DNA of 64,000 nucleotides from Sphingomonas rosea (lineage in GTDB: Bacteria; Pseudomonadota; Alphaproteobacteria; Sphingomonadales; Sphingomonadaceae): NCBI RefSeq assembly GCF_039538065.1, contig NZ_BAABBR010000001.1, positions 2,084,501-2,148,500 of the forward strand. The letters run 5' to 3'. The translations under genes were made by a program, and so were the position numbers. Each line of letters begins with the position of its first letter. Within the stretch, counting starts at the first letter, position 1. This document shows, piece by piece, positions 1 through 9,773 of this stretch. The notes under the pieces were generated by a model, which saw nothing but the letters and a program-made list of their open reading frames with translations, was not told the origin of the DNA and did no database searches.

Positions 1-27
1 GCGGGATGCCGCATCGAGGCCATGACC

Positions 28-1209
28 ATGACCGAGCATCGCATCCCGAAGATCCTGATCATCGCCGGCTCGGACAGCGGGGGCGGTGCCGGCATCCAGG
101 CCGACATTAAGACCGTGACCATGCTCGGCGGCCATGCGCTGACGGCGATCACCGCGGTGACCGCGCAGAACAGCCTCGGGGTCGAAGCGGTCCATCCGGT
201 TCCAGCCGAGATCGTGCTCGCGCAGATCGACAGCGTGCTGTCCGATTTCGGCGCCGACGCGATCAAGATCGGGATGATCGGCTCGGCCTTCACCGCGCGG
301 GTCGTCGCCGATCGCCTCTCGCGGCTGGAACGCAAGATCCCGCTGGTGTTCGATCCGGTCATGATCGCCTCGAGCGGCGCCGCGCTCGCCGACGATGCGA
401 CCATCGAGGCGTTCGGCGAACTGATGGACCTCGCCACCGTCACCACGCCGAACCTTCCCGAACTCGTCCGGCTGACCGGCAAGGAAGACCCGGTCGAGGG
501 TGCGCTTGGCCTCGTCTCTGCCCATCGCTGCGCGGTGCTGGTCAAGGGCGGGCACGACGAGGGCGAGGCGGTCGCCGACGCCCTGATCGAGGAAGACAAT
601 CTCACCAGCTGGCAGGGCACGCGGATCGAAACCCCGCACAGCCACGGCACCGGTTGCACGCTGGCGAGCGCGATCGCGGTCGGCCTCGCCGAGGGCAAGC
701 GCCTGCCCGATGCCGTCGCTGCCGCGCGCCAGTTCGTCCGGCTTGCCCTGCTCGAGGCGCCGGGGCTGGGCGAGGGGGCGGGACCGATGGGTCACGGCCG
801 GGTCCGCCTCGACGTCGGCGGCGCGCCGCGGCTCAACCAGGTCACCGTCACCGGCAAGGACTATGCCGCGCAGGTCGCCTTCTATCGCAAGCTCGGGCTC
901 CACCAGATCGTCGACAGCCCGGTCAACGGCTACGCGCGCTTCGAGGCCTGGGGCGGGGTCACCTTCTCGGTCCAGATCGATCCCGACGAGGAGATCGCGC
1001 CGACCAGTGCCGTCTACTTCGAGTGCGACGATCTCGATTCCCGGGTCGAAGCGCTCGCGCGGAGCGGGATGGTGTTCGAGCACGGCCCCCGCGACCAGCC
1101 GTGGCTGTGGCGCGAGGCACGGCTGCGCGATCCGGCCGGTAACATCGTGTTTCTCTATCGAGCGGGCGAAGCGAGACGATTTCCACCGTGGCGGATACAA
1201 CCGAACTGA
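28..1209 (+). CDS. thiD: ThiD (HMP/HMP-P kinase) fused to a C-terminal VOC/glyoxalase-like domain
   Basis: Residues about 5-262 are a ribokinase-fold pyrimidine kinase: the N-terminal motif GSDSGGGAGIQADIKT and the C-terminal anion-hole motif HGTGCTLASA are both present. ThiD phosphorylates hydroxymethylpyrimidine and its monophosphate for thiamine synthesis in the cytoplasm. Stand-alone ThiD is about 260-270 residues; here about 120 more follow that read as a vicinal-oxygen-chelate module (FYRKLGL near its start, RDPAGN near its end). Two ATGs are possible (22 and 28). The GAGG at 16-19 is well spaced only for 28. What the VOC half does is unknown. No other thiamine gene is visible nearby. 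Confidence 0.88.
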   Translation: MTEHRIPKILIIAGSDSGGGAGIQADIKTVTMLGGHALTAITAVTAQNSLGVEAVHPVPAEIVLAQIDSVLSDFGADAIKIGMIGSAFTARVVADRLSRLERKIPLVFDPVMIASSGAALADDATIEAFGELMDLATVTTPNLPELVRLTGKEDPVEGALGLVSAHRCAVLVKGGHDEGEAVADALIEEDNLTSWQGTRIETPHSHGTGCTLASAIAVGLAEGKRLPDAVAAARQFVRLALLEAPGLGEGAGPMGHGRVRLDVGGAPRLNQVTVTGKDYAAQVAFYRKLGLHQIVDSPVNGYARFEAWGGVTFSVQIDPDEEIAPTSAVYFECDDLDSRVEALARSGMVFEHGPRDQPWLWREARLRDPAGNIVFLYRAGEARRFPPWRIQPN

Positions 1210-1253
1210 CCCGAACTGATGCGGATTTCCGCCCTTCGTGTCAGTATAGGCAC

Positions 1254-1281
1254 TTGCATACATCCATTTTGGGCTGATAAC
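1254..1281 (+). promoter_or_regulatory. possible sigma70-type promoter of the peptide/asparagine-synthetase island
   Basis: TTGCAT at 1254-1259 and GATAAC at 1276-1281 are separated by 16 bp in an unusually AT-rich gap between thiD and the small peptide gene. The arrangement would start transcription about 50 bp before the peptide start codon. It is a by-eye match only. Confidence 0.3.
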
Positions 1282-1339
1282 GGCAACTTACCAATGGCCG
1301 CTGCTCGGTGGCCGCAGTTGCATGAAAAGGCGGCTCACG

Positions 1340-1450
1340 ATGAAGAAGACCTGGAACAAGCCCGAACTGAAGCGCATGGTTGCCGGCGGTGCCGAGAATG
1401 GCGCAAATCCTGGCAACAAGGACGGCAATCCGGGCAGCCGCCGCTCCTGA
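1340..1450 (+). CDS. 36-residue RiPP-precursor-like peptide (lasso-type leader motif)
   Basis: A 36-codon frame opens with MKKTWNKPEL and ends GNPGSRRS; AAAAGG lies 9-14 bp upstream of the ATG. The start resembles lasso-peptide leaders, which carry a Tyr-x-x-Pro-x-Leu recognition motif, with Trp replacing Tyr. The C-terminal half is Gly/Asn/Pro-rich. If Gly21 were the first core residue, Asp28 would be residue 8, which is compatible with a lasso macrolactam ring. The usual Thr at core position -2 is absent. The gene lies 28 bp before an asparagine-synthetase homologue, the enzyme type that closes lasso rings. No leader peptidase, PqqD-like protein or exporter is next to it. The product class is an inference. 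Confidence 0.6.
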   Translation: MKKTWNKPELKRMVAGGAENGANPGNKDGNPGSRRS

Positions 1451-1452
1451 GT

Positions 1453-1472
1453 GCTGGCGGCCGGGCCGCAGC
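1453..1472 (+). promoter_or_regulatory. stem-loop between precursor peptide and synthetase genes
   Basis: GCTG-CGGC (1453-1461, one bulged G at 1457) pairs with GCCG-CAGC (1465-1472) around a 3-nt loop. It ends 6 bp before the synthetase start codon, which has no recognisable Shine-Dalgarno sequence. Such a hairpin could protect the short upstream message or limit synthetase translation. The function is inferred. Confidence 0.4.
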
Positions 1473-1478
1473 TCTTAA

Positions 1479-3347
1479 ATGAGCGGGCTTGCCGCTGCCA
1501 TTGGCGGCTCGACACCTCGGAGTAAGCAACTTCTCAAAGCGCTGCTCGACGCGCAAACGTCTTTAGGGCCGGATGCTTGTTTTGCCGCGTCGGTCGAAAC
1601 GGCCTCGTTCGGGAAGCGACTTTTGGCCGCGCTTCCGGAGGATCGATACGATCAGCAGCCTTTCCGATCGGCTGATGGCCGGTGGATCGTAATATCTGAA
1701 GGTCGCCTTGGCGACCGCGATGAACTGATTGAGCGGCTTGGCCTAGGCCGAGACGTTCCCATGAGCGATGCCGGCTTGCTCGCTCTTGCTTGGACGAGAC
1801 TGGGTCCGTCAATTGGCGAAGTCGTTCCCGGGGACTGGACTCTGTGCGCCTGGGAGACAGAGAGACGGCGCCTGACCTTGGCCCGAAGCCCTCTCGGATC
1901 GCTACCCATGTTCTACGGGACACACGAAGGTGTGTTCATGTGTGCCAGCATCCCGCAAGCCCTGCATCGCGCGGGAATGCCGGCCATCCTCGACGTCGAA
2001 TATTCAGCAGCAACGTTTGCCATGGCGGAGGCCTCCCTCGACGCAACCATGTTCAAAGGCATTCGACGACTTGGCCCCGGCGAGGCTATTACGTTTTCCA
2101 TGGACGGAGCCGCCATATCGCGGACTCGAATTTGGCATCCCGACACTCAAGTGCAGCGCGCCCCGTCGCCGGAGCGCGTCTTCGAGATCGTCGAAAAGGC
2201 AGTCACTGCAGCCTTGCGCCGGTCGAGAGGCTTGGCGGCGACGCAATTAAGCGCCGGTCGTGACAGTGGCTTGATTACCACGATGGCCGCAAGGCACGAG
2301 CCACACCTCGTCGCATTCACCGCTGCTCCGAGCCGCGGGTTTTTCGACAGTGGTCTGCCGCATTTTCTCCAGGACGAGAGTGAATTGGCCGGAACGGTCG
2401 CACGATGGTGCGGCGCACGGCATCATGTCGTCCGAACGGTAGACGATTCCTCTTCGTTCATGGAAACGGTTCGACGGTTCCATGCGACTTCGGCGCGCTC
2501 GGTCCTCAATGTCCGTAATGTCTTTTGGTGGGATGGGATTGGACGTGCAGCGAGCGCGACGGGCGCCTCAATTCTCCTGACTGGGAGTATTGGAAACCTC
2601 ACGGTCAGTGCGGGCGGCGTCAACGCCTTGGGTGATGTCAGACGGGAAGAAGGCCTGGGAAGGTGGTGGCCGCTCGCGCAGAAACTGGCGCTATTACCGG
2701 ATGTTGATTGGAAGACCGTAGCGAACCAGTCATTTCCGGTCCTGTTTCCGGCCAGAGTTCGTCGTGGCTTGAGGAAGCTTGCCCGGCGCCCGGACCGTTT
2801 CTCGCCAGGTCGTAATCTCTTCAGACAAGACTTTCAGGAACGAGTTGCGGCAATTCGCGCCGAAAAAGGCCGATACGATCAACGTTTCTATCACGAAGAG
2901 CGTGCTCAGGCTCTTGAGGTGGTGGACCTAGAGGAACGGACCCTCGCTGCGCATTACGGTCTGTCCGTTCGGGATCCCACGGCGGATCTGCGGGTGGCTA
3001 AGTTGTTCTTGGGGATGCCCGCTATCGATCTTGTGTCGGAGAAGGGCGGTCGCCCCTTGTTCGATCGATGTTTCGGTCCCCTCTTTCCGCCCGAATGGCA
3101 TGACGAGCGGCGGCGGGGGCTGCAAAGCGCAGACTGGATGGAGCAATTCAGGCCTAACGATTTGCTGGAGACGCTCGAGGAGATTGAGACTAGCAATCTC
3201 GCTCGCGAGCTTATCGACCTACCCTATGCGCAGCAATTGCTTCAGCGATGGGTCTCTGTGCCCACTACTCCCGCCGAGCAGCTCTTATATTCCGGAAGTC
3301 TTCTCGAGGCCCTCGCGTTCGGCCTCTTCGTGAAGGATCATTTCTAG
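1479..3347 (+). CDS. asparagine-synthetase-like amide-bond-forming enzyme, glutaminase site lost
   Basis: 622 residues with the two-domain asparagine synthetase layout: an N-terminal Ntn-like domain (about 1-200) and an ATP-pyrophosphatase-like domain (about 225-560). The nucleophilic Cys2 of glutamine-dependent AsnB is Ser2 (MSGLAAA), so glutamine hydrolysis is not expected, as in lasso-peptide cyclases and beta-lactam synthetase. The PP-loop SGGxDS reads SAGRDS (258-263) and the second ATP-site motif reads TGSIGN (368-373) instead of a GDGxDE-type sequence. The ATG directly follows an in-frame TAA, so the start is fixed. The gene follows the short RiPP-like peptide and is visibly more AT-rich than parC. 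It probably modifies that peptide by amide formation, but the altered ATP-site residues leave this open. Confidence 0.75.
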   Translation: MSGLAAAIGGSTPRSKQLLKALLDAQTSLGPDACFAASVETASFGKRLLAALPEDRYDQQPFRSADGRWIVISEGRLGDRDELIERLGLGRDVPMSDAGLLALAWTRLGPSIGEVVPGDWTLCAWETERRRLTLARSPLGSLPMFYGTHEGVFMCASIPQALHRAGMPAILDVEYSAATFAMAEASLDATMFKGIRRLGPGEAITFSMDGAAISRTRIWHPDTQVQRAPSPERVFEIVEKAVTAALRRSRGLAATQLSAGRDSGLITTMAARHEPHLVAFTAAPSRGFFDSGLPHFLQDESELAGTVARWCGARHHVVRTVDDSSSFMETVRRFHATSARSVLNVRNVFWWDGIGRAASATGASILLTGSIGNLTVSAGGVNALGDVRREEGLGRWWPLAQKLALLPDVDWKTVANQSFPVLFPARVRRGLRKLARRPDRFSPGRNLFRQDFQERVAAIRAEKGRYDQRFYHEERAQALEVVDLEERTLAAHYGLSVRDPTADLRVAKLFLGMPAIDLVSEKGGRPLFDRCFGPLFPPEWHDERRRGLQSADWMEQFRPNDLLETLEEIETSNLARELIDLPYAQQLLQRWVSVPTTPAEQLLYSGSLLEALAFGLFVKDHF

Positions 3348-3387
3348 ACCTTGGTGCAAGCCGCGAGACCGCGTAATCGTCACCCCC

Positions 3388-8818: not shown

Positions 8819-9773
8819 GCGATAGCCGCGCGGCCTCCAGCGCCGACGCTCGCGCGCCCCGCCGCGCCTCGCGCAGCGCCGGATAGTCGCTCGCCGCCTC
8901 TTGCTGCAGTGCCCGCGCGAAGGCGTCCGAGCGCAGTTCGCCGAGCATCGCGGCCATCCGCGCCTTGACCGCCTCGTCGACGACCCGGTGCCCGCCGCTC
9001 GCCGCGCCAAATTCGGCGGTGTTGCTGATCGCTTCGCGCATGCCCGCGATCCCGCGCTCGGCGACGAGGTCGGCGAGGAGTTTCAACTCGGTCACGCATT
9101 CAAGATAGGCGAGGCGCGGATCGATCCCGGCGGCGACGAGGGTCTCGAACCCCGCCTCGAGGATCGCGGGGACAGCGCCCCACACGACTGCGCTTTCATT
9201 GAAGAGGTCGGACACGGTCTCCTGTTCGAAGGTCGAGCGGAGCACGCCGGCGCCGGCGCGGCCCGAGCCAAGCGCCGCGGCATAGGCCAGCGCCAGCGGC
9301 CAGGCCGCGCCGGTCGCGTCCTGCGCCACCGCGGCGAGCGCGACCATGCCCTTGCCTTCGGTATAGAGCCGCCGCAGCGCCGCGCCGGGCCCCTTGGGCG
9401 CGACCATGATGACGTCGAGGTCGGCGCGGGGCTCGATCAGCCCGTAGTGGATCGTCAGGCCGTGCGCGAAGCCCAGCGCGGCGCCGGGCCGAAGCGAGCC
9501 TTCGATCGCGCGATAGATTCCCGGCAGATGCTCGTCGGGGGCGAGGAGAAAGACGAGGTCGGCGCCCTCGGCCGCGTCCGCCGGCGACGCCACGCGCAGG
9601 CCGTGCGCACTCGCGTCCTCGGCCCGCGCGCTCCCCGGGCGGAGGCCGACCGTCACCGCGATCCCGCTGTCGTGAAGATTGAGCGCCTGCGCGCGGCCCT
9701 GGTTGCCGAAGCCGATGATGGCGACCGTCTTGGCCGTGATCGGGGTGGGGTCAAGCTCGGCGTCGGTCAGCAT
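8796..9773 (-). CDS. ilvC: ketol-acid reductoisomerase (divergent IlvC)
   Basis: 325 residues. The Rossmann motif is GFGNQGRAQALNLHDSG, followed by the coenzyme loop GLRPGS and the MVAPKGPG motif. The Mg-binding segment DLFNESAVVWG keeps the Asp and Glu ligands, and ISNTAEFG near the C-terminus is also typical. IlvC isomerises and reduces acetohydroxy acids in valine, leucine and isoleucine synthesis. The N-terminus lacks the usual MKVYYD start and no ilvBN genes adjoin, so this may be a second copy. Its ATG overlaps the end of miaA by 7 bp. Confidence 0.85.
   Translation of the reverse strand: MLTDAELDPTPITAKTVAIIGFGNQGRAQALNLHDSGIAVTVGLRPGSARAEDASAHGLRVASPADAAEGADLVFLLAPDEHLPGIYRAIEGSLRPGAALGFAHGLTIHYGLIEPRADLDVIMVAPKGPGAALRRLYTEGKGMVALAAVAQDATGAAWPLALAYAAALGSGRAGAGVLRSTFEQETVSDLFNESAVVWGAVPAILEAGFETLVAAGIDPRLAYLECVTELKLLADLVAERGIAGMREAISNTAEFGAASGGHRVVDEAVKARMAAMLGELRSDAFARALQQEAASDYPALREARRGARASALEAARLSLKGEPDR

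Follow-up and report, generated by a model that had tools for sequence, protein, structure and literature searches.

A gene pair between thiD and parC of Sphingomonas rosea as the probable precursor-cyclase module of a dispersed, kinase-type lasso peptide pathway

The 64,000-nucleotide stretch of the Sphingomonas rosea genome analyzed here (the window; contig NZ_BAABBR010000001.1, positions 2,084,501 to 2,148,500) carries, between thiD and parC, a short gene for a putative precursor peptide (A) followed by a gene for an asparagine synthetase B (AsnB)-like enzyme (C). We consider it probable that this pair is the A-C module of a dispersed lasso peptide pathway of the kinase-linked, paeninodin-like type. 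The other genes of the pathway, namely those for a PqqD-type protein (B1), a peptidase (B2), an HprK-like kinase (K) and a nucleotidyltransferase (N), lie elsewhere in the same genome. The observations behind this reading are the anatomy of the genes, a fixed acid position and a conserved Ser in the precursors, the co-occurrence of the genes across the genus, homologues in which they are clustered, and an insertion site that is empty in related genomes. Lasso peptides are usually mined by A, B and C genes lying side by side, and a precursor-cyclase pair without B could be overlooked or misread in cluster-based mining.

Coordinates and translation agree with the preliminary description of this stretch, i.e. 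a 36-residue peptide, a 28-nt gap and a 622-residue AsnB-like enzyme with Ser at residue 2 (its start reads MSGLAAAIGG), and the SAGRDS and TGSIGN motifs of C were located again (Table 1). A further ATG lies at 1322, upstream of and in frame with the start of A. The pair does stand alone, as no other gene was recognised between thiD and parC. It is also more AT-rich than its neighbours: a recount gives the same 31 G+C in 60 bases at 2701-2760, and C has a GC of 0.598 and a G+C at third codon positions (GC3) of 0.627, compared with a GC3 of 0.873 for thiD and 0.903 for parC. The GC of C is below that of every 1866-bp segment of the window, sampled every 200 bases.

The genome consists of one contig of 2.68 Mb, in which the window pair is found at 2086.0 kb. 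It has a single PqqD-type B1 gene (PqqD/RiPP recognition element (RRE), where RiPP denotes a ribosomally synthesized and post-translationally modified peptide; PF05402, 60.7 bits, cut-off 23.4) at 2204.5 kb and a single B2 peptidase gene (NF033537, 59.8 bits, cut-off 33) at 2217.7 kb. Directly after B2 comes the gene for the HprK-like kinase, which is similar to HprK_rel_A (E 2e-8), and beside B2, facing it, lies the NTP_transf_5 nucleotidyltransferase gene N (PF14907, 130.8 bits, cut-off 31.2). Measured from the window C gene, the distances are 118.5 kb to B1, 131.7 kb to B2 and about 132 kb to the kinase. Across genomes, the Cys/His motif of B2 is intact in 33 of 33 frames read, and the His, P-loop and Asp-Asp motifs of the kinase are intact in 37 of 39. 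The locus is thus related to lasso loci and has an AsnB-like enzyme without the glutaminase Cys, as first described. The reduced two-gene system proposed at the time is not supported, since B1, B2, the kinase and the nucleotidyltransferase are present in trans on the same chromosome; a stand-alone two-gene system was therefore put aside. Of the two options offered then, processing enzymes encoded elsewhere agrees with the gene content of the genome. The leader-retaining amide is not needed, because B1, B2 and the kinase accompany C throughout the genus (see below).

A second A-C pair, with the core AGPNPNAPEGQFAKGS, is located at 491 kb. When the genome was searched with a profile of 25 aligned precursors, the window peptide (E 9e-17) and that of the second pair (E 3e-12) were recovered, each just upstream of an AsnB-like gene, and no further precursor was found at E up to 0.05 with the same profile; the two E-values are so by construction, because both peptides are among the 25 members. 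The second pair has a near-twin in another genome of our collection, G024 (loci L007 and L072), with C 52% identical, cores AGPNPNAPEGQFAKGS and AGPNPVSPEGQFARGS, and B1 40% identical.

The genus is represented by 71 genomes in this collection, 61 of which were searched for B1, B2, K and N. Genomes of no more than 10 contigs with a completeness of 90% or better, here termed near-complete, number 39 of the 61 (own genome included). C, B1, B2 and kinase (E under 1e-15) occur together in 29 of the 39; another 9 lack B1, B2 and kinase at this level, and their C matches are paralogue-like or absent. The remaining one is G006 (see below). The 24 near-complete genomes that are C-positive by search, i.e. 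without calls based on place, all have B1, B2 and the kinase. N was found in 20 of these 24 and is missing in 4 by the search used. It should be noted that the Fisher test of co-occurrence (1.6e-9) ignores kinship and is partly circular, because five of the 29 C (G002, G051, G055, G057 and G058) were identified solely from their position close to B2; the weakest of these calls is G057, where C is 24% identical and lies about 4 kb from B2. B1 matches are weak in G002, G013, G055 and G058 (E 5e-4 to 1e-5). A check independent of C in 22 near-complete genomes gave the same picture: a precursor at E up to 1e-10 is present in 11, each of which also has B1 and B2, the 6 genomes without B1 and B2 have no precursor, and the other 5 have B1/B2 with a diverged or weak precursor. 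A pathway to linear phosphorylated peptides, with an RRE protein, a kinase and an NTP transferase and no cyclase, was set aside, given that C is present in the window genome and in the 29 near-complete B1/B2 genomes (in five by place near B2).

Linkage among these genes varies. In 9 of 24 genomes B1 and B2 are both within 10 kb of C, in 10 neither is (G052 only marginally, at 15 kb), and 5 are mixed. In G036, G053 and G005, the genes N, B2, K, C, A and B1 lie side by side. Two loci depart from these arrangements. G006:C2 (L163) has B2 fragments that score below the cut-off, together with a kinase frame of 201 aa, with no B1 or C nearby, and looks like a decayed lasso cluster. In G024 the clustered cyclase (G024:C1:404580-406468; L024, L053) is in two frames, split or broken, and a longer frame is found for the cyclase of its other A-C pair, at 545 kb. 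In the window genome, N-B2-kinase (L037, 706-5470) adjoins genes for a Wzz/GNVR protein, a tetratricopeptide repeat (TPR) protein and an O-antigen ligase. The complete cluster of G036 (L041) likewise has Wzz/GNVR and O-antigen ligase genes next to it, and this shared setting means that the polysaccharide locus may once have housed the cluster, with A-C and B1 later leaving it in the window lineage.

The preliminary description had named cyclases without an upstream peptide, or an unconserved peptide, as telling against the pairing of A with C. This check did not refute the pairing: a short open reading frame with a W..P.[LVI] leader precedes C at 36 of the 37 lasso-type C loci inspected. In the exception, G014, the sole precursor found with the profile (G014:C1:895726-895827) is about 15 kb from the cyclase, which indicates that A itself can also be detached. 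The leader motif is WxxPxL and not the YxxPxL that had been named for lasso precursors, with Trp in place of Tyr as in paeninodin-like leaders (PMC13381572).

For a closer comparison we used the 28 precursors whose leader ends in AGxAE. W, P and AGxAE are criteria of this selection, and the constancy of AGxAE proves nothing because it was one of them; the acid position and the terminal Ser played no part in the choice. The 28 include near-copies, namely those of G011, G017 and G059, and likewise that of the window genome's second pair and one of G024. The W..P.[LVI] motif is at fixed spacing in 28/28, and W5, P8, A15, G16, A18 and E19 are invariant in the 25 that were aligned (AGxAE partly by selection). 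Pairwise identity averages 60% for the leaders (W to E) and 15% for the first seven core residues. When the core is counted after AE, a numbering that assumes cleavage there, Asp or Glu is at position 8 or 9 in 27 of the 28 (Asp9 in the window); in 20,000 trials with residues shuffled within the cores, an acid fell at 8/9 in 3.8 precursors on average and in 11 at most. The exception, free of acid, is G029. A terminal Ser is present in 27 of the 28. We infer a cut after Ala-Glu from its constant distance to the acid and from the Trp that PbaA has at -15 (PMC13381572); so cut, the window leader has Trp at -15, as in PbaA numbering, Pro at -12 and Leu at -10. Six more precursors (G034, G018, G003, G045, G043 and G013) have other leader ends. 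Each has Glu at position 8 when either of two registers is allowed, the core beginning 16 residues after Trp for five of them and 15 residues after it for G013, a looser test.

C matches the Pfam families Asn_synthase, GATase_6 and GATase_7, and its best NCBIfam model is that of the lasso cyclase (NF033535). Its structure is predicted with a pLDDT of 89.5, the nearest folds being TsnB9, AsnB and beta-lactam synthetase. No lasso cyclase is among the solved-structure matches listed for C, and this was not used as evidence. C was considered as asparagine synthetase B itself and rejected, as Ser2 replaces the N-terminal catalytic Cys and the AsnB model TIGR01536 gives 84.6 of 267 bits. Unlike asparagine synthetase B, beta-lactam synthetase and TsnB9, to which it is 16-18% identical, C has no Cys at position 2 and has a peptide gene upstream. 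In an alignment of 36 C rows, one of which (G047a) is near-empty with 43 residues, the position-2 column is filled in 25 rows and contains 0 Cys, with gaps in the other 11; G021a and G039 have Cys at residue 5. As the 25 filled rows are without Cys, no release of ammonia from Gln would be expected of C. Both ATP motifs are kept across the family: S258 in 34/36, G260 in 36/36, D262 and S263 each in 35/36, and G372 together with N373 in 35/36.

The preliminary description had also proposed that the SAGRDS and GNLT-type motifs recur in sphingomonad homologues and would mark a distinct enzyme subfamily. The Gly-Asn of the second motif is indeed near-invariant; SAGRDS is ruled out as a mark of the subfamily by the variation of the PP-loop, which in the family reads S[SGA]GxDS with few exceptions. 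The distinct subfamily is a fair description, as 25 other C proteins that are 20-32% identical to window C all keep G372-N373, and the subfamily stands out within the genus at about 30% identity. A protein database search with C returned 11 proteins: its own (predicted there as 479 aa), one that is 35% identical and nine weaker AsnB-like ones. Among 100 genomes (own included), AsnB-like matches at E up to 1e-3 occur in 80, although many of these matches are paralogues, and the E-value alone fails to part some C from amidotransferase paralogues (G013, 7e-16; G040, 1e-15). Matches reaching beyond about residue 350, or accompanied by a precursor, were called C, and those confined to about residues 10-350 (G019, G023, G030, G040 and G060) were called paralogues. 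No precursor was seen at the paralogues of G040, G019, G023 and G030.

The thiD-parC site is empty in G029, G017 and G011, with 14-15 bp from stop to start, and is occupied by an A-C pair in the window genome, G020 and G021. In G021, thiD is separated from the A-C pair by an additional stretch of about 600 bp (L044, about 9000-9600). Window ThiD is one 395-aa protein (window 22-1209) with a C-terminal glyoxalase (VOC) domain, and the thiD homologues of G029, G017 and G011 align up to residue 392 of this fused protein. Compared with the window genome, G020 and G021 are 85 and 87% identical in thiD, 92 and 91% in parC, 61 and 63% in B1, 67 and 58% in B2, 60 and 58% in the kinase, and 64 and 55% in N, but only 29 and 33% in C. 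In a quick tree window C groups with C of G021 (SH-aLRT 92), and C of G020 falls with those of G036, G009 and G015 (SH-aLRT 95, long branches). The GC3 of window C contrasts with 0.83-0.90 for parC, thiD, B1, B2, K and N; for other C genes it is 0.650 (G021a), 0.715 (G011), 0.739 (G020), 0.831 (G021b) and 0.855 (G029). Taken together, the identity of C far below that of its flanks and of the maturation genes, the tree placement and the GC3 suggest movement or replacement of A-C against a stable set of maturation genes, and the pair has the look of an exchangeable module. Alternatively, C may have evolved very fast.

One branch of the family differs at the ring position. The C proteins of G029, G044 and G049 form a clade (SH-aLRT 100 in the quick tree), and their precursors have Gln at position 8 or 9 of a predicted core that is free of acids. 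The later-found members G102 and G105 are alike, so that 5/5 cores have Gln at the ring position and no acid; shuffled cores reproduce Gln at 8/9 without acid in 0.1% of trials. C of G105 is apparently broken: it is in two pieces, and an internal stop interrupts one of them. G029 is, like the window genome, a member of the dispersed group, and it has no other precursor of comparable score. Ring closure in this branch would need another chemistry.

From these data we infer the chemistry, the order of steps, the threading and the trans-acting function of the pathway. B1, encoded 118 kb away, would bind the A leader through W(-15)xxP(-12)xL(-10), the HprK-like kinase would phosphorylate the C-terminal Ser, and the nucleotidyltransferase beside the kinase may decorate the Ser phosphate. 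B2 would then cut after Ala-Glu, and C would adenylate core Asp9 and join it to the amine of Asn1, closing a 9-residue macrolactam that is presumably threaded. The predicted product is NGANPGNKDGNPGSRRS with a ring from N1 to D9 and a phosphorylated C-terminal Ser, and one B1/B2/kinase set would serve both A-C pairs of the genome. A more speculative extension, to which we give about one chance in three in our own judgment, is a plug-in lasso system in which fixed, trans-acting B1, B2, kinase and nucleotidyltransferase mature any A-C cassette, with the leader as the plug. Cassettes would be swapped at sites such as thiD-parC, and the branch with Gln for the ring acid would close its ring by transamidation or head-to-tail via the sole remaining carboxylate.

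Table 1. Features of the A-C locus (positions in the window) and the loci of the glutamine branch.
Feature	Position	Strand	Basis or remark
A, precursor peptide gene, 36 aa, MKKTWNKPELKRMVAGGAENGANPGNKDGNPGSRRS	1340..1450	+	Open reading frame; membership of the precursor alignment
Leader of A, MKKTWNKPELKRMVAGGAE: W(-15), P(-12), L(-10), A(-2), E(-1)	1340..1396	+	Alignment of 25 precursors
Predicted core NGANPGNKDGNPGSRRS, ring N1-D9, C-terminal Ser as putative kinase site	1397..1447	+	Ring and phosphate predicted
C, putative macrolactam synthetase of 622 aa with an AsnB fold and Ser in place of the glutaminase Cys	1479..3347	+	Pfam/NCBIfam matches; predicted model
PP-loop SAGRDS (ATP pyrophosphatase motif), residues 258-263 of C	2250..2267	+	C family alignment
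Second motif TGSIGN, residues 368-373 of C, Gly-Asn near-invariant	2580..2597	+	C family alignment
A-C insert, thiD stop to parC start, 2178 bp	1210..3387	+	14-15 bp at the same place in three related genomes
Gln-branch loci: L195 (G044), L196 (G102), L197 (G049), L198 (G029), L203 (G105)			Gln at core 8/9

Several points weigh against a lasso assignment. With 113 of the 525 bits required, window C is far under the lasso cyclase cut-off, the other C of this genome fits AsnB (83.8) better than lasso cyclase (74.6), and the AsnB and XrtA-amidotransferase models also match all 26 aligned C. B1 is under the lasso-specific NF033536 cut-off (46 of 80) and the kinase is under the curated ones (TIGR04352, 33.6 of 200; PF07475, 20.5 of 33.3), and the action of B1 and B2 on window A is deduced from co-occurrence. 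No dedicated exporter was identified in the genome. B1 is flanked by an MsbA-like ABC gene on one side and an enoyl-CoA hydratase-like gene on the other. The ABC gene accompanies these two in all seven genomes of the dispersed clade and is 84-91% identical among them; its protein may serve as the lasso exporter, a housekeeping role being the alternative. Leader position -2 is Ala (28/28, by selection) and not the usual Thr, which we do not take as excluding the assignment, because exceptions with Ile or Val at -2 are known (PMC10368454). Core position 1 is mostly Ala, Ser or Asn, with Gly in 1 of 28. Threading is the main doubt on the mechanism: the tails are short and hydrophilic, with F/W/Y/H beyond position 9 in 8 of 28, so that the plug of a threaded lasso is not obvious. 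As a guess, the modified C-terminal Ser could be the plug.

These tails are what gives some weight to an N-to-side-chain macrolactam, made with B1/B2 in trans, that is not a true lasso: either a branched ring without threading or a cyclic peptide bearing phosphate and sugar. The scarcity of bulky residues after position 9 (8 of 28 cores), the kinase, the nucleotidyltransferase in 20 of 24 genomes and the polysaccharide genes adjoining N-B2-K are all compatible with such a product. We nevertheless regard it as unlikely, since the whole lasso set A, B1, B2, C and K is present, and clustered in relatives, and paeninodin-type peptides made with the same enzymes are reported to be lassos (PMC9266682). 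The foreign composition (GC3 0.627), the site that is empty in three close genomes and the low identity (29-33%) of the cyclase to its counterparts at this site in G020 and G021 would fit a recent or decaying import, unserved by host B1 and B2 and hence silent. This is very improbable in our view given a full-length C reading frame with family-conserved motifs, a leader that keeps every invariant residue, and B1, B2 and kinase in 24/24 C-positive near-complete genomes. The AsnB fold, along with an AsnB-like enzyme reported in another RiPP pathway (PMC13060819), could also mean that C amidates the peptide, leaving the leader in place or forming a C-terminal amide. With 0 Cys in the 25 filled position-2 rows, a fixed acid at the ring position, and B1 and B2 accompanying C, we give this next to no credence, and Gln-dependent amidation with a leader-retaining product was put aside on these grounds. 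A module of a dispersed lasso pathway thus stays the reading we prefer.

The gene set itself is of a known kind, that of kinase-type split-B lasso clusters. The paeninodin/pseudomycoidin type of Bacillota (PadeK, PsmK, PsmN) is alike in its split B1/B2, AsnB-like C, HprK-like kinase and nucleotidyltransferase, as well as in its C-terminal Ser, WxxP leader with Trp at -15 (in PbaA) and frequent co-localisation with capsular polysaccharide loci (PMC13381572). For systems of this type, leader binding by B1 and a B1-B2 partnership (PMC5067487), phosphorylation of the C-terminal Ser of the precursor, and action of PsmN on the phosphorylated Ser (PMC9266682) have been reported. The window set differs in its dispersed genes, in Ala-Glu at -2/-1 and in its place outside Bacillota, to which paeninodins are described as restricted (PMC13381572). 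The same gene set with split B is reported for a proteobacterial A-B1-B2-C-K-D lasso clade (PMC5067487), which is described as one cluster, unlike the window genome. By our own reading, comparing descriptions only, the Syan system of Sphingobium yanoikuyae, whose SyanK polyphosphorylates the C-terminal Ser (PMC9266682), would be this cluster. The bsf lasso peptides of Bradymonadales are likewise kinase-linked with a non-Thr residue (Ile) at -2, and Sphingomonadales are named there as Ile/Val(-2) (PMC10368454); in the window, -2 is Ala and the predicted phosphorylation site is the last residue instead of Ser3. Precedents for RiPP enzymes encoded outside the cluster are the citrulassin PAD and unclustered lanthipeptide proteases (PMC12971885, PMC8960859), in which one tailoring or final enzyme is apart, whereas in the window genome it is B1 and B2, which define the class, that lie away from A-C.

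Several features appear to be new. Genes that define the class are dispersed recurrently, a single B1/B2 set goes with two A-C pairs, the leader ends in Ala-Glu (-2/-1), an A-C insert occupies the thiD-parC site, and one branch has Gln at the ring position. Searches of open-licence literature, judged by titles and the starts of abstracts, brought up no report of unlinked lasso B1/B2 or of cores with Gln at the ring position, a weak indication of novelty since most subscription papers are outside this scope. The co-occurrence across the genus ties the detached parts together, shows that clustering of the pathway is loose in evolution, and suggests that a single recognition protein serves several peptides. 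It also raises the questions of whether A-C pairs can be swapped against one B1/B2 set and how a cyclase acts on a core with Gln at the acid position. Finally, a relative of N with 31% identity is carried by a Terriglobus locus found in a contig scan.

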